Shown in pieces: positions 31,400 through 53,517 of a stretch of 64,000 nucleotides of DNA. The stretch comes from Mariniflexile maritimum (GTDB lineage: Bacteria > Bacteroidota > Bacteroidia > Flavobacteriales > Flavobacteriaceae): contig NZ_WRPN01000002.1 of NCBI RefSeq assembly GCF_009746565.1, positions 372,001 through 436,000 on the forward strand, given 5' to 3'. Positions within the stretch are counted from its first letter, which is position 1; each line of letters opens with the position of its first letter. Made by a program: the position numbers and the translations under genes. A model generated the notes under the pieces. It saw only the letters and a list, made by a program, of their open reading frames with translations, was not told the DNA's origin and searched no databases.

Positions 31400-32152
31400 T
31401 TAAACAATCGTCACTTTCACGCCTTTTTCTTCAAGTTTTTTCTTGTTGAATGAGGAAATACCGCTGTCGGTTATAATTTCGTTAATGTCGCTGATGTCGC
31501 AAATTTTGGCGAAACTTTTTTTGCCGAATTTTGAGGAGTCTGCCAACACAATGGTTCGTTGTGCCGATGCCAACATTTTTTGATTCAATTGTGCTTCTTC
31601 CAGGCTTGTTGTAGATAAACCATAATCGAAATCAATGCCATCAACGCCTAAAAAAAGTTTGCTGCACGACACATTGCTCAGTATTTGTGCCGCATACGAA
31701 CCTATAACAGAAGCTGAACTGTGCCTAATATAACCACCAAGTTGCAAAATTTCAATGTTTTTATTGTGAATTAAATGCAGTACAACATATACGGAAGCGG
31801 TGATAACCGTTAGTTTTTCTTTAGGGTTTATGAATTTTGAAAGTGCCTGAACGGTTGTGCCGGAAGCTATCATAATCGAGTCGTATTCTTCAATTAATTT
31901 GGCAGCGGCTTGGGCAATACCGTTTTTTTCTTCAACTGAAATTTTTTCTTTTTCAACAACGGCGCGTTCATTTATATAGGGGTTTTCTAAAGAAGCACCA
32001 CCATGCGTTCTGTAAAGCAATCCTTTTTTTTCTAAAAGTTTTAAATCTTTTCTAATGGTAACGGCCGAAACTTCTAGGGCTTCGCATAACTCTAAAACTT
32101 CAATATGTTTTTGCTTTGCAATCTTTTGCAGGATAATTTCGTGTCTTTTCAT
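31400..32152 (-). CDS. DeoR/GlpR-family transcriptional repressor
   Basis: 250 residues. The N-terminal winged helix-turn-helix (residues 1-55: KRHEIILQKIAKQKHIEVLELCEALEVSAVTIRKDLKLLEKKGL) and the C-terminal DeoRC sugar-phosphate domain (IAQAAAKLI ... ASGTTVQALSKFI ... LGGYIRHSSASVIG ... LFLGVDGID ... IVLADSSKFGKKSFAKI) are complete. Divergent from glpD with a 144-bp spacer, so it is probably the glycerol-3-phosphate-responsive repressor of the glp genes (GlpR role). A -7-like TATATTTG at 32158-32165 is so close that its mRNA would be nearly leaderless. Confidence 0.87.
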   Translation of the reverse strand: MKRHEIILQKIAKQKHIEVLELCEALEVSAVTIRKDLKLLEKKGLLYRTHGGASLENPYINERAVVEKEKISVEEKNGIAQAAAKLIEEYDSIMIASGTTVQALSKFINPKEKLTVITASVYVVLHLIHNKNIEILQLGGYIRHSSASVIGSYAAQILSNVSCSKLFLGVDGIDFDYGLSTTSLEEAQLNQKMLASAQRTIVLADSSKFGKKSFAKICDISDINEIITDSGISSFNKKKLEEKGVKVTIV

Positions 32153-32296: not shown

Positions 32297-33865
32297 GTGT
32301 TTGGTAGAAGTGCATTAGTGAATCAATTAAAAGAACAGTCTCAATGGGATGTTATTATTGTTGGTGGTGGTGCCACAGGTTTAGGAATCGCATTGGATAG
32401 TACCACAAGAGGTTACAAAACCTTACTTTTAGAACAGGTTGATTTTGCCAAAGGCACTTCCAGCCGAAGTACCAAACTGGTTCATGGTGGTGTGCGTTAT
32501 TTGGCACAAGGTAACATCGACTTAGTTAAAGAAGCGCTTTATGAACGCGGGCTAATGCTGAAAAATGCTTCCCATTTAGTTCGCAACCAATCTTTCATCA
32601 TTCCCAATTACAAATGGTGGGATGCTTTTTTATATACTGTCGGATTGAAAATATACGATTTTTTGGCTGGTAAATTAAGCTTCGGAACATCACTTCGTAT
32701 TTCAAAAAACGAAACGGCATCACGCTTAAAAACCATAAAACAAGAAAATCTTAAAGGTGGTGTGGTGTATCATGATGGGCAATTCGACGATTCCAGATTG
32801 GCCGTTAACATCGCACAAACCGCTATTGAGCAAGGCGCAACGGTTTTGAATCATTTTAAAGTTGAAAAACTACTTAAAAATGAAGCGGGCATCGTGAATG
32901 GTGTTGTGGCCAAAGACGCAGAAACCAATACCGTTTACAGTCTAAACGCCAAGGTAGTCATTAACGCTACGGGTGTGTTTTCAGACGATATTTTGCAAAT
33001 GGATGATGCCCTGGCTAAAAACAGCATTCGCCCCAGCCAAGGCGTGCATTTGGTTCTGGACAAATCGTTTTTACCGGGCAACGACGCCATTATGATACCT
33101 AAAACAGATGATGGTCGCGTGCTGTTTTTGGTGCCTTGGCATAACAGGGTGGTTGTGGGAACTACCGATACCTTGTTGGATAGCCATAGCTTGGAACCCA
33201 CAGCACTTGATAAGGAAATTGAATTTATATTGGAAACGGCCAACAGGTACTTAATAAAACAGGTTACTAAAAACGATGTGCTTAGTATTTTCGCTGGGTT
33301 ACGTCCGTTAGCAGCACCTAAAGATAAATCGGAAAAAACCAAGGAAATATCAAGAAGCCATAAAATTATTGTTTCTAAATCGGGGTTGATAACCATTACG
33401 GGCGGAAAATGGACCACGTATAGGCGTATGGCGCAAGACACTTTAAATAAGGCCATCGAACTGGGTAAACTGCCGGCATCTAAATGCAAAACAAAGAACT
33501 TGTTAATTCATGGAGCAGATGGTAGCACTGACACATCCCAGCATTTGTATATTTATGGTAGCGATACGAAAGGGATTCGTCAACTTATTGATGAATCGCC
33601 AGAACTGGGTGAAAAAATCCATCCCAGACTGGAGTTCATTAAAGCTGAAGTTGTGTGGGCCATAAGAAATGAAATGGCGCGAACCGTTGAAGATGTGTTG
33701 GCAAGACGTGTAAGAGTGCTGTTTTTAGATGCGGAAGCAGCCATAGAAATATCGCCAATGATCGCTACGATGTTAGCCAAGGAATTACACAAAGATAACG
33801 AATGGAAACAAGGGCAAATCTCCAATTTTATTGAAATTGCGAGCCGCTATGTCATTAAAAACTAA
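32297..33865 (+). CDS. glpD: Glycerol-3-phosphate dehydrogenase, FAD-dependent
   Basis: 522 residues from a GTG start at 32297. That start gives MFGRSALVNQLKEQSQWDVI, a normal lead-in to the FAD fold, and no better ATG exists. FAD-binding VIIVGGGATGLGIALDS (about 19-35), then the family signature FAKGTSSRSTKLVHGGVRYL, VPWHNRVVVGTTDT, and SGLITITGGKWTTYRRMA. The C-terminal DAO domain is complete. It oxidises glycerol 3-phosphate to dihydroxyacetone phosphate at the inner membrane and passes electrons to quinone. First of glpD-glpK-glpF. Confidence 0.94.
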   Translation: MFGRSALVNQLKEQSQWDVIIVGGGATGLGIALDSTTRGYKTLLLEQVDFAKGTSSRSTKLVHGGVRYLAQGNIDLVKEALYERGLMLKNASHLVRNQSFIIPNYKWWDAFLYTVGLKIYDFLAGKLSFGTSLRISKNETASRLKTIKQENLKGGVVYHDGQFDDSRLAVNIAQTAIEQGATVLNHFKVEKLLKNEAGIVNGVVAKDAETNTVYSLNAKVVINATGVFSDDILQMDDALAKNSIRPSQGVHLVLDKSFLPGNDAIMIPKTDDGRVLFLVPWHNRVVVGTTDTLLDSHSLEPTALDKEIEFILETANRYLIKQVTKNDVLSIFAGLRPLAAPKDKSEKTKEISRSHKIIVSKSGLITITGGKWTTYRRMAQDTLNKAIELGKLPASKCKTKNLLIHGADGSTDTSQHLYIYGSDTKGIRQLIDESPELGEKIHPRLEFIKAEVVWAIRNEMARTVEDVLARRVRVLFLDAEAAIEISPMIATMLAKELHKDNEWKQGQISNFIEIASRYVIKN

Positions 33866-33929: not shown

Positions 33930-35420
33930 ATGGAAAAATACATACTAGCACTAGACCAAGGTACCACCAGTTCCAGAGCCATCGTTTTTAATAAAAAAGG
34001 CAGTATCATTTCGGTTGCTCAAAAAGAGTTTACACAATATTTCCCAAAACCAGGGTGGGTAGAACACGACCCTTTGGAAATTTGGTCCACACAAGCTGGT
34101 GTCGCTGCGGAAGCACTGGCAAAAAAAGGGTTAAACGTTGAAAACATAGCCGCAATAGGCATCACCAATCAGCGGGAAACCGTAGTGGTTTGGGATAAAA
34201 ATACGGGCAAACCTATTTACAACGCTATTGTTTGGCAGGACAAACGCACTTCCGATTATTGCGATGCGCTAAAAAAACAAGGAAAGGAAACGCTAGTACG
34301 TGAAAAAACAGGGTTGGTTATTGATTCCTATTTTTCAGGGACGAAAGTAAAATGGCTGTTGGATCATGTGGAAGGTGCCAGACAGAAAGCCGAAGCAGGC
34401 AATCTTATTTTGGGGACTATCGATACTTGGCTCGTATGGAATTTTACCAAGGGCGCACAACACATTACCGATGTTACCAATGCGTCCCGTACCATGTTGT
34501 TCAATATCAATACCATGGATTGGGATGATGAACTTCTGGAATTGCTCACCATTCCCAAAAGTATGCTGCCGGAAGTGAAGCAATCCAGTGAAATTTACGG
34601 GCATACAAAATCGACGTTTTATGATGCCAATATTCCCATCTCAGGAATTGCGGGCGACCAACAGGCGGCCTTGTTCGGGCAAATGTGCACCAACCCCGGC
34701 ATGGTTAAAAATACCTACGGAACAGGTTGCTTTATGTTGATGAATATTGGTGAAAACCCCATTGTTTCTAAAAACAATTTGCTAACTACCGTCGCTTGGA
34801 AAGTGAACGGAAAAACCAATTACGCCTTGGAAGGCAGCGTTTTTATTGCAGGTGCTGTGGTGCAATGGTTGCGCGATAGCTTAAAAATAATACGAACTTC
34901 TGCTGAAGTAGAAGCATTGGCAAGTTCGGTTTCAAACTCCGATGGGGTCTATTTTGTGCCTGCATTTGCGGGTTTAGGCGCACCACACTGGAACCAGCAG
35001 GCCCAGGGCACTATTTTTGGATTAACGCGCGGCACCACCGATGCGCACATTGCCCGGGCAGCCATTGAAGCCATTGCCTACCAAACCATGGATATATTAA
35101 AAGCCATGGAAAAAGATTCAGGAATAACCATTAAGGAATTGCGTGTAGATGGTGGTGCCACCGTAAACAATACGCTTATGCAGTTTCAGGCAGATGTTTT
35201 GAATACGGTAACCGTACGCCCTAAAATTGTAGAAACCACAGCCATGGGAGCCGCCTTTTTAGCTGGTTTAGCAGTTGGTTATTGGGAAAGTCCTGAGGAA
35301 ATTGAACAAATATGGCAAACCGACACCTATTTCAACCCGAATACCGATAGAAAAGAAATTGAAAAAAGCATCAAAGGTTGGTACAAAGCCATTGCTGCCC
35401 TAGAATATTGGACGAAATAA
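33930..35420 (+). CDS. glpK: Glycerol kinase
   Basis: 496 residues, family length. FGGY fold: [17 protein letters not shown] (ATP-binding), [33 protein letters not shown] (substrate-binding Arg-Glu pair), [13 protein letters not shown], and [28 protein letters not shown] with the FGGY signature region. It phosphorylates glycerol to sn-glycerol 3-phosphate, which GlpD then oxidises. 64 bp after glpD. High certainty. Confidence 0.96.
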
Positions 35421-35551: not shown

Positions 35552-36280
35552 ATGACACCATTCATTTCAGAAATCATAGGAACGGCCATCCTTATTTTGT
35601 TAGGCGGCGGCGTAGTTGCCAATGTAGTATTAAACAAAACCATTGGCAACAATAGCGGGTGGATAGTTATTACCACAGGGTGGGCATTGGCGGTTTATGT
35701 GGCCGTAGTTATTGCAGGGCCTTATAGTGGCGCGCATATCAATCCGGCGGTGAGTTTGGCACTGGCTGTAGCTGGCAAATTTCCTTGGGAAGAGGTGCCT
35801 TTATATATATTAGCCCAATTTTTAGGGGCCATGTTGGGTGCTTTTCTGGTTTGGCTTATGTATAAAAATCATTTTGACGTTACTGATGATGGCAATGCCA
35901 AAAAGGCGGTGTTCTGTACCGCACCGGCAATTAGACATACAGTTTCTAACTTTTTAAGTGAAGCATTGGGCACTTTTGTTCTTATTCTCACCATTTTATA
36001 TTTCACCGATGCCACCATTACCGATACGCAAACTGTGGTGGGATTGGGCTCGGTGGGTGCATTGCCTGTTGCTTTTTTGGTTTGGTCTATTGGTTTATCG
36101 TTAGGGGGCACCACTGGGTATGCCATCAATCCTGCGCGCGATTTAGGGCCTCGAATAGTGCACGCCTTAGTGCCTATTAAAAACAAAGCATCCAACGATT
36201 GGGGCTATGCATGGGTGCCGGTTTTAGGCCCTATTGTAGGAGCCATACTAGCGGCCTTGTTAATGTTAGCGCTATCTTAA
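35552..36280 (+). CDS. glpF: Glycerol facilitator (MIP/aquaporin family)
   Basis: 242 residues with six membrane helices and both half-helix motifs: GAHINPAVSLAL (about residues 67-78) and GYAINPARDLGPR (about 189-201). The Asp after the second NPAR (NPARD) is the aquaglyceroporin signature and distinguishes it from water-only channels. It lets glycerol cross the inner membrane passively, and GlpK traps it. Last gene of the glp block; a hairpin follows. Confidence 0.94.
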   Translation: MTPFISEIIGTAILILLGGGVVANVVLNKTIGNNSGWIVITTGWALAVYVAVVIAGPYSGAHINPAVSLALAVAGKFPWEEVPLYILAQFLGAMLGAFLVWLMYKNHFDVTDDGNAKKAVFCTAPAIRHTVSNFLSEALGTFVLILTILYFTDATITDTQTVVGLGSVGALPVAFLVWSIGLSLGGTTGYAINPARDLGPRIVHALVPIKNKASNDWGYAWVPVLGPIVGAILAALLMLALS

Positions 36281-36407: not shown

Positions 36408-39179
36408 ATGAAAATTTTCCAATCGGTTATAGTAATGTTCATGGTCATGGCTACTTTTGCCCAAGAGTTGCCGCCTATTGAAAAATATTCACCTGATGAC
36501 TACCTTGGTGATAATCAAAATTGGATGATTTCCCAGAGTGATAACTGCTATATTTATGTGGCAAATAACAAGGGTTTATTGGAGTTTAACGGAGCTGAAT
36601 GGACTTCTTACGCTTCACCAAACAACACCATATTAAGGGCGGTAAATGTTATAAAAGATAGAATATATACCGGTTGTTATGCTGAATTTGGTTATTGGAA
36701 AAAAAACAGGTTAGGCCTGTTGGAATACACCTCATTAATGCCCAAGCTCGATGTAAAAATGCCCGAGGACGAACAGGTTTGGAACATCATCGCGTACAAA
36801 GAATGGGTCGTGTTCCAATCCAATAACACCATTTATTTTTATAATTCCGAAACGGAAACGTTTAAAATAATATCATCCCCCAATACCATTTACAAGATTT
36901 TCCAAGTAAAAAACAGCATCTATTACCATGTGGCCAATGAAGGGATTTATGGGATAGAAAACGGGCAGCCCAAGCTAGTTATAAACGATGCGATTGCAAA
37001 AACCGAACGAATTATCAATCTTTTTGAAAGCAAACAGGGGCTTCTTGTTTTAACCAGGCACTCCGGATTTTATAAGTTTGAAACTGGTAAAATGCAGCGT
37101 TGGGAAATACCTGCCGATGCGACTTTGAATAGGGTAAATGTTTTCAGTTGTATTCAGTTGAAAGATGGCGGTTTTATCATTGGCACCATTTCAGATGGTG
37201 TTTTGTGCCTTGGCAAAACAGGCGCAATAACGAACCAAATAACCCAAAAAAGCGGCTTGGGCAACAATACCGTACTGTCGTTATTTGAGGACAAGGATTA
37301 TAATGTTTGGGCAGGTTTAGATAATGGTATCAACTGCATCAATGTAAAATCGGCCTTCAAGACTTTTTTTGACTATGAAGGGGTTTTAGGCACTGTTTAC
37401 ACCACACAGGTTTTTAAGGATTTTTTGTACATAGGGTCCAATCAAGGCCTTTTTTATAGAAAATTAAATGCCGTAAACGAGCCTTTTAAGTTTATAGATG
37501 GTACAGCGGGACAAGTATGGGACTTGTTTAATTATAACGACGCCTATTTGTTTTGTGGCCATCATTTGGGTACGTTTTTGGTACATGAAAACAGTGTTGA
37601 AAAAATAAGCAACACCTTGGGTGCGTGGACGTTCAAGGCCATTCCCAATCGGCAGGATTTATTGCTTCAGGGGAATTACAATGGGCTGTTCGTTCTTGAA
37701 CAGAAAAATGGCACGTGGCACGTTAGAAATAAAATTGAAGGCTTTAAAAATTCATCGCGCTATCTTGAAATCAACGAAAAAAATCAGGTTTGGGTGAACC
37801 ACGAGTATAAGGGAGTGTTCAAGTTAACCTTGGATGACAGCTTATCGAAAGTGTTGAAATTTGATATGGAATCGAGCGTATCTCCCGGAAAAAACTCCAG
37901 TTTAATTAAATACAAAAATAACATTATCTATGCTTCCGAGAAAGGGGTCTTTAAATACGATGCGTCTTCCAAAACTTTTAAAAGAGATGTGCTTTTAAGT
38001 GCTGTTATCGATGAAGACAACTATGTTTCCGGAAAATTGGTAGTCGATAAAAACGAAAGACTTTGGGCGTTTTCCAACGATAACATTGAATATATTGAAA
38101 GCGATGCCGTTTCAAACAAACCTGTTATTTACCACATTCCCATGCCTGCAAAGTTGCGAAAAGGGGTGTTGGGGTTTGAGAACATTTCATTCATAAGTGA
38201 TAATAAATACGTTCTTGGAACAGCAAACGGATATATAAATATCGATCTGTCTAAACTCAAAACAAGTCCTAATCGTTATATTTTCTTAAATGCGGTTACC
38301 TTAAAAAATATTGATGAAGCCATAATCGATTTCCCTATTGCACAACACGGGGCGTTAAACTACAAACAGGGCATTGTACAATTTAAGTATTCGGTACCGG
38401 TTTATGATAAATATGTTGATGTTAAATACCAATATATTTTAGAAGGTTTTCAAAACAAATGGAGCCAGTGGACCGAAACGCCGGAGGTAAGCTTTGAGAA
38501 TCTTTCCTTTGGAAATTATACGCTCAAGGTACGCGCTAAAATTGGCAACGATCTTTCAAAAAACACCATTAGTTACAGTTTCTTGGTGCATCGCCCTTGG
38601 TATGTGTCCAACACCGCTTTGGTTTTTTATATCATATTGTTCCTTATCATAATTTTAATTACCCACAAAGCTTATAAGAGATACTACATCAATAAGTTCA
38701 AGCATGAAAAGATGCAGAATGAGCAAACCATCATGCAAATAAAAAATGAAAGGTTGAATCAGGATGTTGAAAACAAAAATAGGGAATTGGCAATTTCAAC
38801 CATGAGCATTATAAAAAAGAACGAGGTTTTGAACAGTATAAAAAAAGAACTGAAAAAAAACAAGAATACCAGTAATAATGCAGCCTTAAACCTAATAGAC
38901 AGCAACTTAAACGACGCGAAGGATTGGTCCTTTTTTGAACAGGCTTTTAATAATGCAGATAAAGATTTTTTAGATAAAATAAAGCTGATACACCCCGATT
39001 TAACACCCAACGATTTACGCTTTTGCGCCTACCTTCGCCTAAACCTATCCTCCAAAGAAATGGCGCCTTTGCTCAATATTTCCATAAAAAGCGTGGAAAC
39101 CAAACGTTATAGATTACGAAAGAAATTAGGTTTGGAACACGATAGCGGCCTGGTAACATACATCTTAAACTTTCAATAA
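36408..39179 (+). CDS. Membrane sensor-regulator: beta-propeller, Y_Y_Y and LuxR-type HTH
   Basis: 923 residues. Signal peptide 1-18, then a large periplasmic two-component-type propeller (repeats such as DNQNWMISQSDNCYIYVANNK, NNTVLSLFEDKDYNVWAGLDNGIN). A Y_Y_Y domain (KYQYILEGFQNKWSQWTE ... LKVRAKIGN) lies at about 675-720, then one membrane helix at about 735-755, a coiled coil at about 765-830, and a LuxR-like HTH (SSKEMAPLLNISIKSVETKRYRLRKKLG) at about 864-915. It has the sensor of a hybrid two-component system but no histidine kinase or receiver, so it binds DNA directly from the membrane. It probably controls the SusCD/GDPD-GH16 locus just downstream. Confidence 0.87.
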   Translation: MKIFQSVIVMFMVMATFAQELPPIEKYSPDDYLGDNQNWMISQSDNCYIYVANNKGLLEFNGAEWTSYASPNNTILRAVNVIKDRIYTGCYAEFGYWKKNRLGLLEYTSLMPKLDVKMPEDEQVWNIIAYKEWVVFQSNNTIYFYNSETETFKIISSPNTIYKIFQVKNSIYYHVANEGIYGIENGQPKLVINDAIAKTERIINLFESKQGLLVLTRHSGFYKFETGKMQRWEIPADATLNRVNVFSCIQLKDGGFIIGTISDGVLCLGKTGAITNQITQKSGLGNNTVLSLFEDKDYNVWAGLDNGINCINVKSAFKTFFDYEGVLGTVYTTQVFKDFLYIGSNQGLFYRKLNAVNEPFKFIDGTAGQVWDLFNYNDAYLFCGHHLGTFLVHENSVEKISNTLGAWTFKAIPNRQDLLLQGNYNGLFVLEQKNGTWHVRNKIEGFKNSSRYLEINEKNQVWVNHEYKGVFKLTLDDSLSKVLKFDMESSVSPGKNSSLIKYKNNIIYASEKGVFKYDASSKTFKRDVLLSAVIDEDNYVSGKLVVDKNERLWAFSNDNIEYIESDAVSNKPVIYHIPMPAKLRKGVLGFENISFISDNKYVLGTANGYINIDLSKLKTSPNRYIFLNAVTLKNIDEAIIDFPIAQHGALNYKQGIVQFKYSVPVYDKYVDVKYQYILEGFQNKWSQWTETPEVSFENLSFGNYTLKVRAKIGNDLSKNTISYSFLVHRPWYVSNTALVFYIILFLIIILITHKAYKRYYINKFKHEKMQNEQTIMQIKNERLNQDVENKNRELAISTMSIIKKNEVLNSIKKELKKNKNTSNNAALNLIDSNLNDAKDWSFFEQAFNNADKDFLDKIKLIHPDLTPNDLRFCAYLRLNLSSKEMAPLLNISIKSVETKRYRLRKKLGLEHDSGLVTYILNFQ

Positions 39180-39189
39180 CACAACATAG

Positions 39190-39243: not shown

Positions 39244-39437
39244 ATGCCCTTCACACACTTTAAAATGTTTGTTAATCACAGTATTTACAGGCATTTTGCT
39301 GATAATTTAATAGTTAATAGTGCTTTTTGTTGCTGTGTTCGTTTTATATCGAGGTAGATTTTATGGATTTATCATTTTTTGAGGCTAAGTTTACAAAAGC
39401 TTAATGTTTAAAATAAATCTTAAATGAAGCAAACCCA

Positions 39438-39445
39438 TACTTTTG
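39438..39445 (+). promoter_or_regulatory. -7 box of the beta-glucan SusCD operon
   Basis: TACTTTTG matches TAnnTTTG and lies 25 nt before the SusC ATG. No good -33 box is visible, as expected for a promoter that needs an activator. The remainder of 39244-39437 shows nothing recognisable. Confidence 0.4.
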
Positions 39446-39470
39446 AAACTAAACTTTAAACTAAATTAAT

Positions 39471-42400
39471 ATGAAACTAAAACTATGTAATCAAAGAATT
39501 AGAATTCTATTTCCAATGCTGTTTTTATTCACCTCATTTTTAATGGTGGCTCAAACACAAAAAGCAATTAAGGGAACGGTCTTGTCTGCCGAAGATGGCA
39601 TGCCCTTACCGGGCGCATCGTTAATTGTTAAGGGAACTTCCAACGGTGCTTCAACCGATTTTGATGGTAAATTTGCACTATCCGTTTCAAACAATGCCTC
39701 CACATTAATAGTATCTTATATAGGGTATAAAACGAAAGAGGTGGCCATTACATCCAATGATATAACTATATCCTTGGCGGTTGATACCAATACCTTGGAC
39801 GAGGTGGTAGTTGTAGGTTACGGTACCCAAAAAAGAAGTGATGTAACAGGGGCTGTTTCAAAAGTTGAAATGGATAATGCCATTGCTATTCCAACTACCA
39901 ACATCTCTGAAATGATTAGGGGTCAAGCCGCTGGGGTTCAGGTAAATTTAACTTCCGCAAGGCCCGGTGGTACCTCAAATATCTTAATCAGAGGTAGAAA
40001 TTCCATTAGGGGTGGTAACGATCCGCTTATTGTGTTGGATGGTTTTCCCATTGAAAACATCAACGATGTAAACCCCGACGACATCACGTCCATTGAAGTG
40101 CTAAAAGATGCATCTGCGCAGGCAATTTATGGAGCAAGGGCATCCAACGGGGTTATACTTATTACAACCAAGAAAGGTAAAGATGGTAAAGTAAGGGTTT
40201 CATTAAATTCATATACTACGGTACAAAAACTTACCAAAAACTTCGATTTGTACTCTGCCGAAGATTTTATAAAATTAAGAAGAGAGGCCGTTAGAACAAC
40301 AAATCCAGTAGTAAATGGGGTACAGGCATATAGCGATGATACCGTAAATTTTAGCTCAGCAACCGAGTATGCCGCTTTTGTTGCAGGCAAGTACGTGAAT
40401 TGGGAAGATGAGGTGTTGCGAACCGGCATGATCCAGAGCCATACCTTAAGCGTTAATGGCGGCAATGAAAACACCAAGGTATTTTCGAGTGCCAATTATT
40501 TTGACCAAATAGGTTTGATACCAACCTCGGGATACAAAAGAGGCTCGTTTAGGTTAAACCTGAACCAAAAACTTAACGACAAAGCTAGCATTGAAGCAAA
40601 CCTAAACCTAAGTACGGCCAATCAGAAAAAAGAAACGACCAATTTAGACTTTATAACCATTTCGCCATTTACAGGGCCTTATGATGAAAACGGTAATTTG
40701 GTCAAAGATCTGGCAGGCGCAAACGCAAGTAGCAGTAGCATCAACCCTTTATGGAACATTAAGGAGTCTGACAACGATGTAAAAACCGATTTATACAATC
40801 TTAATTTAGTGGCCAACTATCAGTTTACAAAAAGTTTTTCCTATAAGTTAAATACGTTATTAAGCAGAAGGTTTGTTGATGAAGGCCAATACCTATCTAA
40901 AATACACTCTCAAGGTGTAACGCCTAATGGAAGGGCAACGGTTTCAAATACACTTAGGGAAGAATATTTAATAGAGAATATTTTCAATTATTCACCAGAA
41001 CTAAATGAAAATAATAGGTTGGATGTAACCTTTGTACAATCCATAAACCAAAGAAATTCTTCAAGAACAACTACCGAAGCAACAGGGTTTGGTAATGATG
41101 TGCTTGGTTATGATGGTATTAGTGGCGCCTTAAACTTCACGGCCAATAGAGCTGAGGAACAATATAGGTTATCTTCCTTTTTAGGCAGGATTCGCTATAC
41201 TTTAATGGATAAATATTTATTAACCTTAACAGGTCGTAAGGATGGGGCTTCCGTTTTTGCCGAAAACAATAAATGGGGCTTCTTTCCGGCAGCTTCCTTG
41301 GCATGGCAATTACATAAGGAATCTTTTCTTAACAACATAGAAGCCATCAACGAATTGAAGCTAAGAATGAGCTATGGTTCGGTAGGTAACCAATCTTTAG
41401 ACCCTTATACCACATTGGGCGTTGTTGATAATTATCCATATATATTTGGGGGTGCCGTTGTGGGCGGTAACCTTCCCGGAACCGTACTGCCAAACCCCAA
41501 CCTAACTTGGGAAACCTCAACCACGGCCAATATAGGTCTTGATTATGGCATCTTTAAAAACAGGTTAAGGGGTTCTGCGGAATATTATAGCACCAAAACA
41601 ACCGATTTGTTAACCGATATATCGTTGGGCGGCAATTCTGGTTTTAGCTCCATGATTACCAATGGGGGCGAAACCAAAAATAGCGGTATCGAGTTATTGC
41701 TAACCGGTGAGATCATAAGAAAAAATGATCTAAAATGGAGCATAACCGGCGTGTTTACCAAAAACAGCAACGAAATAACCAAAACCGGCATCGTAGATGT
41801 AGATGGAAAACCAAAGGACGATTTGGGCAGAAACCGATATGCGGGCGAACCCATCAATGTTTACAGAGCTTATGTGTTTGATGGTATTTTCCAATCGGAT
41901 GCCGATGCCCTAGCGTCACCCCAGGGCACATTAAATGGTACGGTTACACCTTTCCAGAACGTTACGACCCTTACCGCAGGTGCCATCAAAATAAAAGATG
42001 TTGATGGAAGTGGCAGAATTACGGATGATGACAAAGTTATTATTGCCAGGGACCCCGATTGGTTTGCATCCATTTCATCTTCCTTCCAGTTTAAAGGTTT
42101 TGAGTTATTGGCCGATTTGTATATTGTTGAAGGTGCCAAAAGATACAATCCTTATCTGGCCGATTTTAACGAGGGCGGTACCATAACATCTGTTAGAAAC
42201 GGTATTGTGCGCGACTACTGGACACCAGAAAACCCATCCAACACAGCACCAAGGCCCAATTACGCCAGTGCCCCAGCAAACATAAGCGTTTTGGGCATTA
42301 CCGATGCTTCCTATGTTAGGTTAAGAACCTTGTCGCTATCCTATAGTTTGCCTCAGTCCTTATTGGGAAAACTGAACATGAATGCTGCAAAATTATACAT

Positions 42401-42515
42401 TACGGGCTCCAATTTATTTACCATAACCGATTACAAATCGTATAGCCCTGAAAATAATGCGGGCGATTTTCCCGATACAAAATCATTAACATTAGGTGTA
42501 AATATTACTTTATAA
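39471..42515 (+). CDS. SusC/RagA TonB-dependent transporter, beta-glucan locus
   Basis: 1014 residues. Signal peptide 1-28, CarboxypepD_reg-like domain (KGTVLSAEDGMPLPGASLIVKG), TonB-box region (DEVVVVGYGTQKRSDVTGAVS), plug (MIRGQAAGVQVNL ... LIVLDGFPIENI ... VLKDASAQAIYGARASNGVILITTK) and barrel ending in LTLGVNITL. It imports oligosaccharide across the outer membrane. The substrate is inferred from the downstream GH16 and GH3 enzymes to be a beta-glucan, possibly a substituted one. 18 bp before its SusD partner. Confidence 0.95.
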   Translation: MKLKLCNQRIRILFPMLFLFTSFLMVAQTQKAIKGTVLSAEDGMPLPGASLIVKGTSNGASTDFDGKFALSVSNNASTLIVSYIGYKTKEVAITSNDITISLAVDTNTLDEVVVVGYGTQKRSDVTGAVSKVEMDNAIAIPTTNISEMIRGQAAGVQVNLTSARPGGTSNILIRGRNSIRGGNDPLIVLDGFPIENINDVNPDDITSIEVLKDASAQAIYGARASNGVILITTKKGKDGKVRVSLNSYTTVQKLTKNFDLYSAEDFIKLRREAVRTTNPVVNGVQAYSDDTVNFSSATEYAAFVAGKYVNWEDEVLRTGMIQSHTLSVNGGNENTKVFSSANYFDQIGLIPTSGYKRGSFRLNLNQKLNDKASIEANLNLSTANQKKETTNLDFITISPFTGPYDENGNLVKDLAGANASSSSINPLWNIKESDNDVKTDLYNLNLVANYQFTKSFSYKLNTLLSRRFVDEGQYLSKIHSQGVTPNGRATVSNTLREEYLIENIFNYSPELNENNRLDVTFVQSINQRNSSRTTTEATGFGNDVLGYDGISGALNFTANRAEEQYRLSSFLGRIRYTLMDKYLLTLTGRKDGASVFAENNKWGFFPAASLAWQLHKESFLNNIEAINELKLRMSYGSVGNQSLDPYTTLGVVDNYPYIFGGAVVGGNLPGTVLPNPNLTWETSTTANIGLDYGIFKNRLRGSAEYYSTKTTDLLTDISLGGNSGFSSMITNGGETKNSGIELLLTGEIIRKNDLKWSITGVFTKNSNEITKTGIVDVDGKPKDDLGRNRYAGEPINVYRAYVFDGIFQSDADALASPQGTLNGTVTPFQNVTTLTAGAIKIKDVDGSGRITDDDKVIIARDPDWFASISSSFQFKGFELLADLYIVEGAKRYNPYLADFNEGGTITSVRNGIVRDYWTPENPSNTAPRPNYASAPANISVLGITDASYVRLRTLSLSYSLPQSLLGKLNMNAAKLYITGSNLFTITDYKSYSPENNAGDFPDTKSLTLGVNITL

Positions 42516-42533
42516 CTATTAAAAACTATAATT

Positions 42534-44186
42534 ATGAAACTAAAAAATATATATTTTAAATGGGCATTGTCTCTGTTTTCAATGCTTGTTTTCATGACAT
42601 CTTGCGACGACTTTCTACAAGAAGAACCAACCTCCCAGTTCACGGCAAATTTGGTTTACAATACGCCCGATGGTCTGGAAGCCGGTGTGGTTGCGTTGTA
42701 TAGTTTTCAAAGGGCCTTTTGGGAAAATTCAGCAAATAATGGCTCCAACCCCATAGTTATCGATTCGCGCGACGACCTTACCATTCCTCGCGGCGGGGAA
42801 ATCTCAAACTATGGCAGGATGAGAAACGGTACCACCCCAGAAAATAGTGGGGTATTCAGCGATTATTGGAAAACCAATTATAGAATTATTGATAGGGCAA
42901 ACGCCATCATAAAAGCCGCAGAGAATATTCAAGGAATGGACGAAAAAAGAAGGGCGCAGGTGATTGCCGAAGCTAAATTTTTTAGGGCCAATTCAACCTT
43001 TACTTTATTCAAACTGTTCAATAATATTTTTATTACTACCGAACCTACAACACCAGAGAACGTTTCGGATATTATTTTGGACAAAACCCCAGAAGCAGAT
43101 ATTTATAAGTTAATTAAAGACGATTTAACCTTTGCAATTAACAACCTGGAATGGACCACGAATCAAAGGGGCAGGATAACCCAAGGTACGGCGCGCCACC
43201 TAAAGGCCGATGTGGCTCTATGGCAAAAAGATTGGGCAGAAGCAAAGTTACAGTCGGAAGCAGTTATTAATTCAGGAAAGCACGCTTTGGCCACCGACCC
43301 AAGATTGGTGTTTGCGGGCGAAGTAAATAGTTCTGAAATTTTATGGGCATTACAATTTAAAAGTCAGGTAAATGGCAGAACCAATAAAATTAATTTTAAT
43401 TTGATGCCAAATTATGCCGAACAAATACCGGGTTCAAAATACACAGTTGAACAAGGTGGGCGCGGTTTTGCTTGGTTAACTATGAACAACTATTTGAGAG
43501 ATCTTTTAAATGCAGACCCTAACGACAAACGTATAAAAGGCACCTATTATATTCAAGATTATCTTTATAATGACCCTGCTACCCTTCCGGCTGGTATAGA
43601 ATTGGGCACCAAAATTGTTCATCCAAGTTGGAAAGAGTTCGCCTCAACGGCAGCCAACAGAAATTTTTGGTTTATCCGTTTAAATGCCGGTTGCAAAAAA
43701 TATTTCCCAGATGATGGTATTCCAACCCAAGACAGTCAATTTAAAAATATATCCATGTATCGTTTAGCAGAAACCTATCTTTTTGCCGCAGAGGCTAATT
43801 TAATGTTAGGAAATGATGCCGAGGCCATAAAAAACTTGAATAAAGTAAGAACCCGTTCTAGTGCAGCGGCAGTAACCACCATTACCATGCAAATGATTTT
43901 GGATGAGCAGGCAAGGGAATTGGCTTTTGAAGGTCGCCGTTGGTACATGCTAAAAAGAACCGGCAATTTATACAATTTTGTGCGCGATCATGCAGGTTAT
44001 GGGATGGCAGGCGATTTGAGCCCTGAAAACTCAACAGCTGGTGGCGCCAACAATACACCAGCAAAACCGCTGCCCTATAGAAGTGATGCCAGATTTTCAA
44101 TAAAACCTCACATGGTTAATTGGCCAATACCACTTGCGGAAATGAATCTTTTGGGCCCCAATTACCCTCAAAATGAAGGATATTAA
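42534..44186 (+). CDS. SusD/RagB-family surface glycan-binding lipoprotein, beta-glucan locus
   Basis: 550 residues. Lipobox VFMTSC followed by DDFLQEE, an acidic surface-export signal. Core motifs: RAQVIAEAKFFRANSTFTLFKLFN, YRLAETYLFAAEANLMLGN, DEQARELAFEGRRWYMLKRTG and the terminal WPIP..E... It covers the SusC pore and binds glycan. Its sequence is clearly different from the SusD of the alpha-glucan locus. Confidence 0.95.
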   Translation: MKLKNIYFKWALSLFSMLVFMTSCDDFLQEEPTSQFTANLVYNTPDGLEAGVVALYSFQRAFWENSANNGSNPIVIDSRDDLTIPRGGEISNYGRMRNGTTPENSGVFSDYWKTNYRIIDRANAIIKAAENIQGMDEKRRAQVIAEAKFFRANSTFTLFKLFNNIFITTEPTTPENVSDIILDKTPEADIYKLIKDDLTFAINNLEWTTNQRGRITQGTARHLKADVALWQKDWAEAKLQSEAVINSGKHALATDPRLVFAGEVNSSEILWALQFKSQVNGRTNKINFNLMPNYAEQIPGSKYTVEQGGRGFAWLTMNNYLRDLLNADPNDKRIKGTYYIQDYLYNDPATLPAGIELGTKIVHPSWKEFASTAANRNFWFIRLNAGCKKYFPDDGIPTQDSQFKNISMYRLAETYLFAAEANLMLGNDAEAIKNLNKVRTRSSAAAVTTITMQMILDEQARELAFEGRRWYMLKRTGNLYNFVRDHAGYGMAGDLSPENSTAGGANNTPAKPLPYRSDARFSIKPHMVNWPIPLAEMNLLGPNYPQNEGY

Positions 44187-44209
44187 TTATTTTGTTGTTT
44201 AGTTTTTTT

Positions 44210-44246
44210 ATGCAAAGGGCAAAAATTATTTGCCCTTTGCATTTTA
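44210..44246 (+). terminator. Strong hairpin between SusD and the GDPD-GH16 gene
   Basis: Perfect 14-bp stem ATGCAAAGGGCAAA / TTTGCCCTTTGCAT with a short loop, preceded and followed by T-rich DNA. It may attenuate transcription so that the transporter genes exceed the enzyme genes. A one-mismatch -7 box (TATCTTTA, about 44271) follows and could restart transcription. Confidence 0.65.
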
Positions 44247-44294
44247 AATCGTCGAATATTTTATCTTTAGTCAAACCGTCAACCCAATAAAAGT

Positions 44295-45872
44295 ATGCGT
44301 TATTTGTTAATAGTATGTCTTGTTATAGGTTTCAATGCCTGTAAAACGGCAAGTGTAAGTAACAAAATCATTTTTGCCAATAATCCGGTTATTGCACATC
44401 GCGGTGCTTGGAAAGCCAATAATTTTCCCGAGAATTCGGTGGCATCGTTAAAACAGGCCATCGCATTAAAATGTACAGGATCGGAATTTGATGTAAGAAT
44501 GACGGCAGATAATGTTCTCATCATCAACCACGACCCCGAGTATCATGGTCTGGTTATTGAGGAAACTACCTATGCGGAACTTTCAAAGTACAAACTTCCA
44601 AACGGCGATATGCTGCCCACTTTAAAGCAGTATATACTTGCAGGTATGCAGAACAATACCACAACGGGTTTGGTATGCGAAATAAAACCTTCAAAAATAG
44701 AAGGCAGAAATGTAATGATTGCTGAAAGTGTTATCAAACAGGTGAAGGAACTAAAAGCGCAACCTTTTATTTTAGCATATATCAGTTTTAGCCATGAAAT
44801 TCTTAAAAAGGTAAAAGAATTGGATGCCAACGCCAAAACGCAATATTTAGATGGTTCCAAAACACCAGAAGTTTTAAAAAACGATGGTATTTCCGGATTG
44901 GATTATGCACTTTTCAAACTTAAAAGAAACCCCCAGTGGATTGAAAGCGCCAAAAACCACGGCCTATTATTAAATGCATGGACTGCCAATACCACCGAAG
45001 ATATCGACTGGCTTTTGGCAAACGATTTCAACTACATAACCACCGATGAACCCGAACTGGTTTTTAAAAGGGTATCCGAAAGCCCTACGGCTAAAGGCTA
45101 TAAATTGGTTTGGAACGATGAGTTTGATTATACCGGAAAGCCCGATGCCAGCATATGGGGCTACGATTATGGGTTTATTGCCAACCAAGAAAAACAGTAT
45201 TATGCAGATAGTTTGAAAAATGCTCGGGTTGAAAATGGTTATTTAATTATTGAAGCCCACAAAGAAAAAATAGCCAATAAAGATTTTAAAAACCCCAATA
45301 TTAAAGATTGGGCGCGCTATAAAAGAGAAATTGACACGGCGCAATATACATCGGCACGGATAAAAACCGAAGGACTTGCCGCATGGCAATATGGGCGTAT
45401 TGAAGTTAGGGCAAAACTCCCCAAAGGGCGAGGGATGTGGCCTGCTATTTGGATGTTAAGCGAAGACAGAAAAGATATTGGTTGGCCTGAAAGTGGTGAA
45501 ATTGACATCATGGAACATGTGGGCTATGATAATGATACCATACACGGCACCATCCATACAAAAGCATATAATCATTTAAAAGGTACCCAAAAGGGGAAAA
45601 CGATTTTTATTGATAAACCAAATGATACTTTTAATGTCTTTGCACTTGAATGGACACCTGATAAAATGGATTTTTTATTGAATGATGTGGTGTATAATCG
45701 AATAATAAATGAGCATAAAACCACCGATGAATGGCCTTTTGATAAAAAATTCTATCTCATATTAAATGTCGCTGTTGGCGGTATGTGGGGCGGTCAAAAA
45801 GGGATTGATGATACCATTTTTCCGCAACAAATGCAAGTAGATTATGTAAGGGTGTATCAACTAAAAAAATAA
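44295..45872 (+). CDS. GDPD-GH16 fusion lipoprotein (phosphodiesterase plus beta-glucanase)
   Basis: 525 residues. Lipobox GFNAC with Cys16, then KTASV (no acidic surface signal, so probably periplasmic). Residues about 31-262 are a glycerophosphodiester phosphodiesterase domain with all key residues: H35-R36-G, E64-F-D66, H79-D80 and E129 (CEIKPS); such domains release glycerol phosphate from phosphodiesters. Residues about 270-525 are a GH16 domain (YKLVWNDEFDYTGKPDASIWGY) with catalytic E402-x-D404-x-x-E407 in GEIDIMEHVG and the C-terminal VAVGGMWGG ... FPQQMQVDYVRVYQ, typical of laminarinase-type endo-beta-1,3-glucanases. One continuous frame. Neighbours are SusCD, EEP and GH3, with glp genes upstream. 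It suggests attack on a phosphoglycerol-substituted beta-glucan; unproven. Confidence 0.9.
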   Translation: MRYLLIVCLVIGFNACKTASVSNKIIFANNPVIAHRGAWKANNFPENSVASLKQAIALKCTGSEFDVRMTADNVLIINHDPEYHGLVIEETTYAELSKYKLPNGDMLPTLKQYILAGMQNNTTTGLVCEIKPSKIEGRNVMIAESVIKQVKELKAQPFILAYISFSHEILKKVKELDANAKTQYLDGSKTPEVLKNDGISGLDYALFKLKRNPQWIESAKNHGLLLNAWTANTTEDIDWLLANDFNYITTDEPELVFKRVSESPTAKGYKLVWNDEFDYTGKPDASIWGYDYGFIANQEKQYYADSLKNARVENGYLIIEAHKEKIANKDFKNPNIKDWARYKREIDTAQYTSARIKTEGLAAWQYGRIEVRAKLPKGRGMWPAIWMLSEDRKDIGWPESGEIDIMEHVGYDNDTIHGTIHTKAYNHLKGTQKGKTIFIDKPNDTFNVFALEWTPDKMDFLLNDVVYNRIINEHKTTDEWPFDKKFYLILNVAVGGMWGGQKGIDDTIFPQQMQVDYVRVYQLKK

Positions 45873-45883
45873 AATTTATCAAG

Positions 45884-46720
45884 ATGAAACAGTATGTAGT
45901 AGTATTAGCGGTATGTATTATGGGTTTTACAAGTTGTAAGAGCCAGAACCTGGATGTGATGACCTATAATATCCGGTTGGATATTGCCTCAGATGGTGAA
46001 AATGCGTGGGCCAACAGAAAAGATTTTTTTAGTTCACAAGTGCTTTTTTATGCGCCCGATATTTTAAATGTGCAAGAAGCAAGACCCAACCAAATGGACG
46101 ATTTAAAGTCCGTTTTAAACGATTATAAAGCCATTGGTTTAGGGCGCGATGGTGGCAATTTGGGCGAACATTCGGCCATTTTTTATAATTCAAAGAAATT
46201 AAAAGTTGAAGACACCGCAACCTTTTGGTTATCTGAAACCCCCAATAAGGTTTCCAAAAGTTGGGATGCGGCCTATCCAAGAATATGCACTTACGGATTG
46301 TTTACTGTTTTAAAAAGCAAACAAAAGGTTTGGGTTTTCAACACCCATTTAGATCATGTAGGGGTAAACGCCCGCTTAAAGGGCATGGCGTTAATCCTTA
46401 AAAAAATAAATGAAGTGAATACGCAAAAACTTCCGGTAATCCTAACGGGCGATTTTAATGTGGAACCAAATGATGAATTGATTTCGACGCTAAAACAGGA
46501 TATGGTCGATTCAAAAAACATCGCCAAAATCATTTTTGGCCCCAACGGAACTTTTAATGCTTTTAATTACAACGAGCCCGCAACCCGAAGAATCGATTAC
46601 ATCATGCTTTCAAAATCCAGTAAAATTACGGTTGAAAAATATGGGGTGTTAACCAGTGCCATCAATCTTAAATACCCATCCGATCATTTTCCCGTATTCG
46701 CCACATTAAAGTTAAAATAA
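45884..46720 (+). CDS. Endonuclease/exonuclease/phosphatase (EEP)-family lipoprotein
   Basis: 278 residues; lipobox GFTSC with Cys18 followed by KSQ, so probably periplasmic. EEP fold: MTYNIRLD (metal-binding Asn), LNVQEARPNQ (Glu), VFNTHLDHVG, LTGDFNVEPNDE (Asp/Asn), RIDYIML and the final YPSDHFPV (Asp-His). The family includes DNases, sphingomyelinases and inositol phosphatases; all cleave phosphate esters. Its place between GDPD-GH16 (11 bp upstream) and GH3 (9 bp downstream) suggests it acts on a phosphate group of the glycan or its products. Substrate not known. Confidence 0.87.
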   Translation: MKQYVVVLAVCIMGFTSCKSQNLDVMTYNIRLDIASDGENAWANRKDFFSSQVLFYAPDILNVQEARPNQMDDLKSVLNDYKAIGLGRDGGNLGEHSAIFYNSKKLKVEDTATFWLSETPNKVSKSWDAAYPRICTYGLFTVLKSKQKVWVFNTHLDHVGVNARLKGMALILKKINEVNTQKLPVILTGDFNVEPNDELISTLKQDMVDSKNIAKIIFGPNGTFNAFNYNEPATRRIDYIMLSKSSKITVEKYGVLTSAINLKYPSDHFPVFATLKLK

Positions 46721-46729
46721 GTCTATTAT

Positions 46730-49060
46730 ATGAAAACTGCTACCATAATTTTAAAATATACCATCGCTTTAGGGGTTGCCTTGGGTGTTTTTAACCCTGA
46801 AAACGTTAATAACGACCCAAAAACCAAAAAGGCAACTTCTGTTAATGCCATTGAAAAAAAGGTCGATTCCGTTTTAGGGTTGATGCATCTCAATGAGAAA
46901 ATTGGGCAATTGGTTCAATATAGCGGTGGATGGGATGCCACAGGGCCATCATCTTCCAATGGCGACCAATATAAATTGAACAAACTTAAAAAAGGCGAGG
47001 TGGGTTCTATGCTTAACATTACATCGGTGGCATCCATCCGTGAAACGCAAAAAATAGTCATGGAACATTCCCGACTCAAAATTCCCTTAATTTTTGGGTT
47101 CGACGTTATCCATGGCTATAAAACCATTTTTCCCATTCCTTTGGGCGAAAGTGCCAGTTGGGATTTGGGTATTATCAAGCAATCGGCTCAAATAGCGGCG
47201 AAGGAAAGTGCCGCATCTGGCATCAACTGGACCTTTGCGCCCATGATAGATGTTTCAAGAGATGCCCGCTGGGGTCGTATTATGGAAGGTGCCGGTGAAG
47301 ATACTTATTTGAATTCCGTTATTGGCGTTGCCCGCATTCAGGGGTTTCAAGGAGGCGATTTATCACAAGCACATACTATTGCCGCTTGTGCCAAACATTT
47401 CGCAGGCTATGGTTTTGGGGAGGCAGGACGCGATTACAACACGGTAAATATAGGTGATAATGAACTGCATAATACCATTTTGCCACCATTTAAGGCCGCG
47501 GCCGAAGCGGGCGTTGCAACCTTTATGAATTCGTTTAACGATATTGATGGTATTCCTGCTACCGGAAGCAGCATGTTGCAGCGCGACATTCTGAAAGGCG
47601 CTTGGAACTGGAAAGGGTTTGTGGTATCCGATTGGGGTTCTATAGGCGAAATGATAGCGCATGGCTATGCGGAAGATAAAAAACATGCTGCTGAAATTGC
47701 CCTAAATGCCGGTAGCGATATGGACATGGAATCCTATGCCTATGAAGCGCATTTGGAAACCTTATTGCATGAGAAAAAAATTACGATGGAAGCGATTGAC
47801 GATGCCGTTAAACGCGTTTTGCGCCTAAAATTTGAACTTGGCCTGTTTGATGACCCCTATAAATATTGTGATGAAAAACGCGAAACAACCGAGGTTTACA
47901 CGCAACAGCATTTAGCGATAGCCCGCGAGGTGGCAAAAAAATCCATCGTATTGCTTAAAAATGACAAGTCACTTTTGCCGCTTTCCAAAAATATCAAGAG
48001 CATAGCGGTTATCGGGCCCTTGGCGAACGATAAAGATACGCCTTTAGGCAACTGGCGCGGAAAAGCAGTCTATAATTCGGCGGTTTCCTTTTTGGAAGGT
48101 GTTAAAAATGCCGTAAGTAGCACTACAAAAATAAATTTTGCCAAAGGAATCGATTTAACCATTCCAAATGTTGCGCCCGGATCTAATCAATTTTTGTTTC
48201 CTTTAAAATTCAATACAACCAATACTTCTGGAATGGCTGAAGCTGTTGAAGCAGCAAGAAAATCGGAAGTTGTTTTATTGGCCATTGGCGAAAATGCGTA
48301 CCAAACGGGGGAAGGCCGAAGTCAAACCCATATTGGTTTTGCAGGACTTCAAAATGACTTATTGGAAGCCATTTACAAAGTGAATAAAAACATTGTTATT
48401 GTTTTGATGAACGGAAGGCCGATGGATATTAGTCGTGCTTCCGAAATAGCTCCCGCAATTTTAGAATGTTGGCATTTGGGTTCCGAGTCTGGAAATGCCA
48501 TTTCCGATGTGGTTTTTGGCGATTACAATCCTTCCGGAAAACTGCCTGTTTCCTTTCCGCACAACGTGGGCCAAGAACCGCTATACTACAATCAAAAAAA
48601 TACGGGCAGACCCAGCGCAGGCAACCATGTAACGTTTTCTGGGTATCGCGATGCGCCAAAAACCGCATTATATCCATTTGGGTTTGGCTTAAGTTACACC
48701 ACATTTTCTTATGATAATTTACAATTGGACAAAACGGAAATTTCAACTGGTGGTGAATTAAAGGTTACCGTAAATGTTACCAACACCGGTAATCGGGATG
48801 GCGAAGAAGTGGTGCAGCTTTATATACGCGATTTGGTAGGCAGTTTGGTAAGGCCCATTAAAGAATTAAAAGGATTTCAAAAAATGATGCTCAAAGCAGG
48901 CGAAACCAAAAAGGTAACATTTGTTATTAATGCCAAAACGCTTGAATTTTATACTGCCAATAAAAAGTGGGAGGTAGAACCCGGTAAATTCAATGTTTGG
49001 GTGGGTGGCGATTCATTGGCACCCTTGAAAGCCACCTTTAATGTAATAAATCCCTATTAG
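46730..49060 (+). CDS. GH3 beta-glucosidase (BglX-like)
   Basis: 776 residues with an N-terminal signal segment (about 1-20) and no lipobox. GH3 N-domain: SRDARWGRIMEGAGEDTYLNS, AKHFAGYGFGEAGRDYN, and FVVSDWGSIGEM with the nucleophile Asp301. C-domain (KKSIVLLKNDKSLLPL, VLLAIGENAYQTGEGRSQTHIGF) and C-terminal fibronectin-III-like domain (VTVNVTNTGNRDGEEVVQLYIRD). It would release glucose from beta-gluco-oligosaccharides in the periplasm. Last gene of the locus. Confidence 0.94.
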   Translation: MKTATIILKYTIALGVALGVFNPENVNNDPKTKKATSVNAIEKKVDSVLGLMHLNEKIGQLVQYSGGWDATGPSSSNGDQYKLNKLKKGEVGSMLNITSVASIRETQKIVMEHSRLKIPLIFGFDVIHGYKTIFPIPLGESASWDLGIIKQSAQIAAKESAASGINWTFAPMIDVSRDARWGRIMEGAGEDTYLNSVIGVARIQGFQGGDLSQAHTIAACAKHFAGYGFGEAGRDYNTVNIGDNELHNTILPPFKAAAEAGVATFMNSFNDIDGIPATGSSMLQRDILKGAWNWKGFVVSDWGSIGEMIAHGYAEDKKHAAEIALNAGSDMDMESYAYEAHLETLLHEKKITMEAIDDAVKRVLRLKFELGLFDDPYKYCDEKRETTEVYTQQHLAIAREVAKKSIVLLKNDKSLLPLSKNIKSIAVIGPLANDKDTPLGNWRGKAVYNSAVSFLEGVKNAVSSTTKINFAKGIDLTIPNVAPGSNQFLFPLKFNTTNTSGMAEAVEAARKSEVVLLAIGENAYQTGEGRSQTHIGFAGLQNDLLEAIYKVNKNIVIVLMNGRPMDISRASEIAPAILECWHLGSESGNAISDVVFGDYNPSGKLPVSFPHNVGQEPLYYNQKNTGRPSAGNHVTFSGYRDAPKTALYPFGFGLSYTTFSYDNLQLDKTEISTGGELKVTVNVTNTGNRDGEEVVQLYIRDLVGSLVRPIKELKGFQKMMLKAGETKKVTFVINAKTLEFYTANKKWEVEPGKFNVWVGGDSLAPLKATFNVINPY

Positions 49061-49347: not shown

Positions 49348-49355
49348 TATTTTTG
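49348..49355 (+). promoter_or_regulatory. -7 box of the xylose operon
   Basis: TATTTTTG matches TAnnTTTG. It overlaps the TTG at 49353 that would be the far-upstream start of the regulator frame. Transcription would begin after that codon, which supports the ATG at 49383 as the true start. Confidence 0.45.
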
Positions 49356-49382
49356 GAGAACAGAACAGAACAGAACGGTTTG

Positions 49383-50369: not shown

Positions 50370-50370
50370 C

Positions 50371-51867: not shown

Positions 51868-51870
51868 AAA

Positions 51871-51924: not shown

Positions 51925-51995
51925 AAAAAAGAAAATAGAAAAGAGAAAATAGAATATAGCAGAGAATAAAATAATAAAAAATGGAAAATAAGTTT

Positions 51996-53505: not shown

Positions 53506-53517
53506 CCAACAAGCGTT

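Follow-up and report, generated by a model that had tools for sequence, protein, structure and literature searches.

A GDPD-GH16 fusion lipoprotein in a SusCD locus with glycerol genes of Mariniflexile maritimum: a candidate system for a beta-1,3-glucan carrying glycerol phosphate

Why would a lipoprotein encoded next to a SusC-SusD pair join a glycerophosphodiesterase (GDPD) domain and a GH16 glucanase domain in one chain? The question is raised by a gene of Mariniflexile maritimum (44295..45872, + strand) that lies in the window analyzed here, a stretch of 64,000 nucleotides (contig NZ_WRPN01000002.1, positions 372,001 to 436,000). An earlier note on this DNA described the fusion and proposed that the enzyme removes phosphoglycerol groups from, and cuts the backbone of, a substituted beta-glucan, such as an osmoregulated periplasmic or cyclic glucan. 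The main result of our analysis lies beyond the fusion itself, in the gene neighborhood.

The open frame spans 525 codons, with the stop at its end, and the domains of the 525-residue product were delineated using Pfam, phmmer, a multiple alignment, and a predicted model. A signal peptide with a lipobox (44295..44342, + strand) ends at Cys16, and a loose lipobox pattern is matched by 38 of the 45 aligned fused proteins. The GDPD domain (residues 35-254; 44397..45056, + strand) covers positions 1-243 of the 244 of Pfam profile PF03009 (81.4 bits; cut-off 23.6). The GH16 domain (residues 266-523; 45090..45863, + strand) matches PF00722 at residues 343-518 (84.9 bits; cut-off 22), with structural matches starting from about residue 263. 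When the window protein is aligned with 44 fused homologs (n = 45), no substitution is seen (45/45) at H35, R36, E64, D66, H79, E129, or K131 in the GDPD half or at W397, E402, D404, or E407 in the GH16 half, and the E-x-D-x-x-E motif is intact. The GDPD residues (H-R, E-x-D, H, and E) follow the order of the active site listed for Bacillus subtilis GlpQ (His43, Arg44, Glu70, Asp72, His85, and Glu152) in the available part of PMC7086022. By profile and catalytic and metal residues, the window protein is a member of the GDPD family and a predicted glycerophosphodiesterase. Its GH16 half is of the beta-1,3(4)-glucanase type, and hydrolysis of beta-1,3-glucan would be expected by analogy with the homolog 7WWC, which was solved with laminaritriose. 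The single 525-codon lipoprotein frame reported in the earlier note was thus recovered with both domains over the Pfam cut-offs and every residue it had named, and the consistent loss of GDPD residues among homologs that it had suggested looking for was seen in 0 of 45 sequences.

The AlphaFold2 model built from the fused-protein alignment (mean pLDDT 92.5, pTM 0.87) aligns structurally with 7wwc (474 residues, 1.1 A, Z-score = 47.5, 49% identity). Because the superposition extends over two domains, their packing, and not just each single fold, is predicted to be the same as in this structure. A phmmer search of the PDB likewise retrieved 7ww4 (486.8 bits) and 7wwc (486.7 bits), with both domains spanned, so that the order and packing of GDPD and GH16 appear common to the crystals and the predicted model. 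The two entries are titled as a multidomain beta-1,3(4)-glucanase and a beta-1,3(4)-glucanase with laminaritriose, and these titles leave the GDPD half unmentioned. In the available text of a 2025 paper (PMC12448869), 7WWC is said to lack an accompanying publication, and a later passage gives its source as a Pedobacter terrae glucanase; elsewhere, the same text labels it a Bacillus circulans xylanase, but the P. terrae label fits the PDB title. The fused proteins of three loci (L035-L037) closely resemble 7WW4 by eye, and neither SusCD nor an EEP (endonuclease/exonuclease/phosphatase family) gene was seen by eye within about 1.5 kb on each side of their genes. GH16-assigned proteins with a glycerophosphodiester phosphodiesterase as the best match were also reported in 2015 from the secretome of a wheat-straw consortium (Sphingobacterium RWS13-16; PMC4666044). 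Their paired assignments are like those of the window protein, and the fusion, its substrate, and a glycerol operon are undiscussed in the available part of that paper. The architecture was therefore already known from 7WW4, 7WWC, and the Sphingobacterium proteins, and the statement in the earlier note that no characterized enzyme with this pairing came to mind has to give way to the two solved structures. The structural prediction that it recommended supports the domain assignment across both halves, and sequence and structure comparison together establish the fusion and its two complete catalytic sets.

We then asked how widespread the fusion is. The search for this architecture suggested in the earlier note yielded full-length fused genes in 44 loci among the best 80 of a scan of named genomes, a set that does not represent frequencies in nature. 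Because fused genes recur in related loci and in a crystal, a sequencing or frame artifact was rejected. Among the matches listed, the hosts belong to Flavobacteriaceae, Saprospiraceae, Haliscomenobacteraceae, Chitinophagaceae, Prolixibacteraceae, Marinilabiliaceae, Spirosomataceae, Fulvivirgaceae, and unplaced Bacteroidota. When genomes are drawn evenly, few carry the fusion (8/395 class-wide and 9/395 phylum-wide, in overlapping draws that both include the M. maritimum genome, with the best three candidates per genome scored); a tenth phylum-wide match covers GDPD only and was not counted. A one-off fusion was rejected on these counts. One scan match, on a contig labeled Williamsia (Actinomycetota; L134), is a GDPD relative that groups inside the Bacteroidota sequences, and this assembly is probably mislabeled or contaminated.

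In the tree of GDPD domains, from which 5 short rows were left out, the fused state has to change 12 times, and well supported branches force at least 6 of these changes. Separate neighboring GDPD and GH16 genes were found in Mariniflexile fucanivorans (L078), Zobellia uliginosa (L108), Pricia antarctica (L107), and Cerina litoralis (L122). GDPD persists without the GH16 half in Subsaximicrobium and in five Winogradskyella and two Gelidibacter genomes. The Winogradskyella loci (L084-L087 and L093) retain SusCD and GDPD, with no GH16 in the stretch examined, which implies that the two activities can part; EEP is directly next in three of them (L084, L086, and L093), and GH3 is also present in one (L084). 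Fulvivirga sp. M361 (L133:9866-12321) has a fused gene with a second, separate GDPD gene directly behind it.

The fused gene of the window belongs to a run of nine genes on one strand (32297-49060): glpD, glpK, glpF, regulator, SusC, SusD, GDPD-GH16, EEP, and GH3. The first three encode a glycerol-3-phosphate dehydrogenase of the GlpD type (32297..33865, + strand; NCBIfam PRK12266, 311 bits, under the cut-off of 360), the glycerol kinase GlpK (33930..35420, + strand; TIGR01311, 757.6 bits; cut-off 590.35), and an aquaglyceroporin or GlpF-type MIP channel (35552..36280, + strand; Pfam MIP, 150.9 bits; TIGR00861, 191.8 bits; cut-off 171.25) with the NPARD motif that marks glycerol channels. A DeoR/GlpR-family repressor gene (31400..32152, - strand; best NCBIfam match AgaR, 224 bits, under the cut-off of 260) is divergent from glpD and probably regulates the glycerol module; a DeoR gene precedes glpD in another locus (L096) as well. 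The next gene (36408..39179, + strand) encodes a probable regulator of a polysaccharide utilization locus (PUL), with propeller repeat and Y_Y_Y domains over the Pfam cut-offs (Reg_prop, 23.3 bits; Y_Y_Y, 38 bits) and a weak LuxR-type HTH under it (GerE, 19.2 bits). It is followed by a SusC-like TonB-dependent outer-membrane transporter (39471..42515, + strand; TIGR04056, 820 bits) and a SusD-like outer-membrane lipoprotein (42534..44186, + strand; Pfam SusD_RagB, 105.9 bits). These two lie directly upstream of the fused gene, as its placement within a SusCD locus in the earlier note requires. Downstream are an exported EEP protein (45884..46720, + strand; Pfam Exo_endo_phos, 47.7 bits) and a GH3 beta-glucosidase of the BglX type (46730..49060, + strand; NF011678, 769.1 bits; cut-off 666). 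The gaps are 108 bases between SusD and GDPD-GH16, 11 between GDPD-GH16 and EEP, and 9 between EEP and GH3, and the operon structure was deduced from strand and spacing. With adjacent SusC and SusD followed by GH16 and GH3, the locus fits a PUL in its gene content.

The EEP protein is a putative phosphomonoesterase. It aligns with 4c1r at 163.9 bits over residues 23-259 plus an SDHFP motif, and N, E, H, D-N, and D-H, which we take to be the EEP motifs, are matched across the catalytic domain. The entry 4C1R was deposited as a mannosyl-6-phosphatase, by name an EEP enzyme acting on a sugar phosphate and a relative of the window EEP; its substrate by name is mannose phosphate, and the window protein is likened to it from sequence alone. 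No GlpT over the cut-off was found in the genome (best score 48.7 bits; cut-off 632.55), and a second glycerol kinase, below the cut-off, is encoded elsewhere in it.

The cluster is flanked by other loci. Upstream, a starch-type locus on the minus strand (17999-27598) comprises SusC, SusD, SusE/SusF-like genes, an alpha-amylase, and GH97, and an S1-type sulfatase with the CSPSR motif (29904..31385, + strand; Pfam Sulfatase, 205.4 bits) lies closer to glpD. Close relatives of this sulfatase are found between EEP and GH3 in three related loci (L062, L065, and L078), a hint that sulfate groups are present on some substrates as well. Downstream, a xylose operon (49353-54936) consists of a GntR-family regulator, a xylulokinase-like FGGY kinase, a xylose isomerase, and a XylE-type transporter. 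The SusC and SusD of the window show 45% and 38% identity to the pair of locus L060, though the GDPD-GH16 enzymes of the two loci are closer. The window type of SusC/SusD is common to L059, L091, and L133 (66-86%), most related loci having another type, and the transporter pair seems, from these comparisons, to be swapped as a cassette.

To what extent do the companions of the fused gene recur? Among the best 80 loci, SusC is encoded in 52, EEP in 36, GlpK in 20, GlpF in 20, and GlpD in 7; no SusC-like gene was found in the stretch examined for 10 of the 44 fused loci. Full flanks are available for 57 of the best 80 loci. Of these, 24 carry a glycerol gene (at least 50% identity) and 33 have none within about 10 kb, and EEP is present in 29. 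The 24 glycerol-positive loci include L138, with only a glpD about 10 kb away on the other strand, and L088, a Gelidibacter scan match that is absent from the tree and has no labeled GDPD frame in the gene calling. As a control, we hand-picked 20 GH16-only genes with their surroundings (about 20 kb each), one per related genome and five from congeners. None of GlpK, GlpF, GlpD, and EEP was detected around these genes (0/20 at E 1e-8), and 11 of the 20 controls have both SusC and SusD. The difference in glycerol genes (24/57 of the best 80 versus 0/20) gives a Fisher p of 1.7e-4, a value that overstates independence because the loci are related. The controls were first searched with stricter coverage filters than the loci, and a repeat of both sets without a coverage filter had the same outcome. 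GH3 does not discriminate (28 of the best 80 loci versus 8/20 controls). In the clade of the window, 35 of the best 80 loci, glycerol genes are found in 22 of the 32 loci with full flanks; since this clade was defined after the tree was seen, the whole-set comparison is the fairer figure. Among the other 45 of the best 80 loci, glycerol genes are rare (2/45, L122 and L088), and EEP is rarer than inside the clade (8/45). In the same genus, a GlpK over the cut-off is encoded in all three genomes with the GDPD-GH16 pair and in neither of two genomes without it; one congener (G003) has its over-cut-off glpK on a different contig.

The position of the glycerol genes varies. A called GDPD gene is present in 23 of the glycerol-positive loci (among the best 80). 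In 16 of them, glpK-glpF lies about 9 kb upstream of GDPD, in two loci glpD-glpK-glpF is 6 to 10 kb downstream (L062 and L078), and in two others the glycerol genes are directly upstream (L096 and L122). Locus L096 is a bare glpD-glpK-glpF-GDPD-EEP run, with no GH16 in the stretch examined, and L122 is a glpK-glpF-GDPD-GH16 run in which 16-base gaps separate GDPD from its neighbors. In L089 and L110, glpD directly precedes GDPD and EEP. Since the glycerol genes are found in at least three placements relative to GDPD, the link was probably selected; a chance neighborhood is unlikely given these varied positions and the GH16-only controls (0/20). Within the clade of the window, EEP comes next after GDPD-GH16 in 19 of 25 loci (among the best 80). 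In Maribacter polysaccharolyticus (L083), its place is taken by a calcineurin-like phosphoesterase (11500-12312), 6 bases after GDPD-GH16, and in L035 a PF04185 phosphoesterase is encoded about 226 bases after the fused gene. The gene set and its recurrence are, like the fusion, established by comparison.

With moderate confidence, we interpret the fused protein as a bifunctional exported lipoprotein of a PUL for a beta-1,3-glucan, probably 1,3/1,6, that carries glycerol phosphate. A glucan locus that also encodes glycerol uptake and catabolism suggests that the glycan bears glycerophosphate groups. In the pathway that we propose, the GH16 domain would cut the glucan backbone, SusC/SusD would import the pieces, and the GDPD domain would hydrolyze the glycerophosphodiester. 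The exported EEP would then remove the phosphate left on either product: GDPD might release glycerol phosphate, to be dephosphorylated by EEP, or might release glycerol and leave a sugar phosphate for EEP. The GH3 enzyme would trim the oligosaccharides to glucose, and free glycerol would enter through GlpF, after which GlpK and GlpD would turn it into dihydroxyacetone phosphate. The presence of GlpF and GlpK and the lack of a glycerol-3-phosphate transporter suggest that it is free glycerol that enters the cell, which would require a phosphatase outside the inner membrane, and the exported EEP encoded 11 bases downstream fits this role. With no GlpT over the cut-off in the genome, the phosphate is probably removed outside. 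We infer that both domains act on one polymer, and likewise which polymer this is, what GDPD releases, what EEP does, and in which order and where the steps occur. For the backbone, beta-1,3 or 1,3/1,6 linkages are most likely because the GH16 relatives are laminarinases and beta-1,3(4)-glucanases and GH30 genes are present in two of the related loci (L090 and L091); the GH30 family includes beta-1,6-glucanases. Cyclic beta-1,3/1,6-glucans may be the substrate; we know of no common natural polymer in which a beta-1,3-glucan bears glycerol phosphate. The dual action proposed in the earlier note thus gains from the retention of both active sites and from GlpF, GlpK, and GlpD, which the release of glycerol or glycerol phosphate would require; the osmoregulated periplasmic glucan that it offered as an example is not supported, its main chain having been suggested to be beta-1,2 and the GH16 being of the beta-1,3(4)-glucanase type.

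It is possible, although rather unlikely, that the two domains act on two substrates from the same debris, GH16 on a laminarin-type glucan and GDPD on phospholipid glycerophosphodiesters of dying algal or fungal cells, with the fusion and the operon ensuring joint expression; a shared chain and operon are no proof of a shared substrate. Such an arrangement would account for the loci in which GDPD accompanies EEP and glycerol genes, with no GH16 in the stretch examined (L096, L089, and L110), and for the GH16 relatives that exist without GDPD, and ordinary GDPDs (GlpQ) act on deacylated phospholipids according to the available part of PMC7086022. However, the fusion or adjacency of the two domains recurs in several Bacteroidota families among the matches listed, and in Winogradskyella GDPD is encoded directly behind SusD without GH16, an arrangement that fits import of a phosphoglycerol glycan better than that of free small diesters.

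A poly(glycerol phosphate) glycan, for example a teichoic acid that contains glucose in its chain or as a side group, with the glucanase half removing the sugar, is an improbable substrate. B. subtilis GlpQ, a GDPD, degrades wall teichoic acid exolytically (PMC7086022, available part), and GH3 and the glycerol genes would fit such a polymer. The GH16 half, however, matches beta-1,3(4)-glucanases, one of them with laminaritriose bound, the GH30 genes of L090 and L091 argue against it, and no teichoic acid-specific gene was found among the genes scanned.

We consider the osmoregulated periplasmic glucans of proteobacteria a quite improbable substrate as well. Their phosphoglycerol comes from phosphatidylglycerol. 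In the genes scanned from 29904 to 51867 of the window, Pfam and NCBIfam identified no enzyme for a beta-1,2-glucan backbone. These glucans do carry phosphoglycerol (PMC10514313 and PMC3818809, available parts), but Escherichia coli OpgH is suggested to make a beta-1,2 main chain (PMC10514313, available part), and a GH16 of the laminarinase type is not expected to cleave such a chain. Furthermore, groups derived from phosphatidylglycerol should be sn-1, whereas GlpQ-type GDPDs are sn-3 specific (PMC7086022, available part). If the window GDPD were instead sn-1 specific, this would itself account for the need to free glycerol and re-phosphorylate it by GlpK. Finally, a vestigial or purely structural GDPD domain of a laminarinase would be in keeping with the titles of 7WW4 and 7WWC, which name only the glucanase, but is very unlikely given the invariance of the tested catalytic residues (45/45) and the retention of the GDPD half in several flavobacterial lineages in which the GH16 half is absent.

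Returning to the glycerol phosphate-carrying beta-1,3-glucan, its wider implications follow from the use of PULs to read which glycans exist in an environment. Among the matches listed in the open-licence literature, we found neither such a locus or substrate assignment nor an explanation of the GDPD-GH16 fusion. Tentatively, we propose that beta-1,3-glucan decorated with glycerol phosphate could be a common, undescribed food in sea and soil, and that this family of loci, present in many Bacteroidota, could be a dedicated degradation system in which one cluster harvests glycerol, phosphate, and glucose and one enzyme both strips and cuts the polymer. If so, carbon and phosphorus acquisition would be linked in one operon, and the second, so far unexplained domain of the enzyme solved as 7WW4 and 7WWC would gain a meaning.

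Each half of the fused protein has counterparts among solved structures. The GDPD fold of the model is shared with 3NO3 from Parabacteroides distasonis (Z-score = 36.1) and with GlpQ (5T9B and 5T9C; Z-score about 27), whose chains consist of GDPD only, and the GH16 half is matched by the laminarinase 3ILN and the beta-1,3(4)-glucanase SCLam 6XOF (Z-scores of 36 to 37, 53-54% identity), whose chains, unlike the window protein, lack a phosphodiesterase domain. At the level of the locus, the laminarin PULs of marine Bacteroidota contain SusC, SusD, GH16, and GH3, all of which are common to the window locus. Unlike the GH16-only control loci (0/20), the window locus combines these genes with GDPD, EEP, and the genes for glycerol uptake and catabolism.
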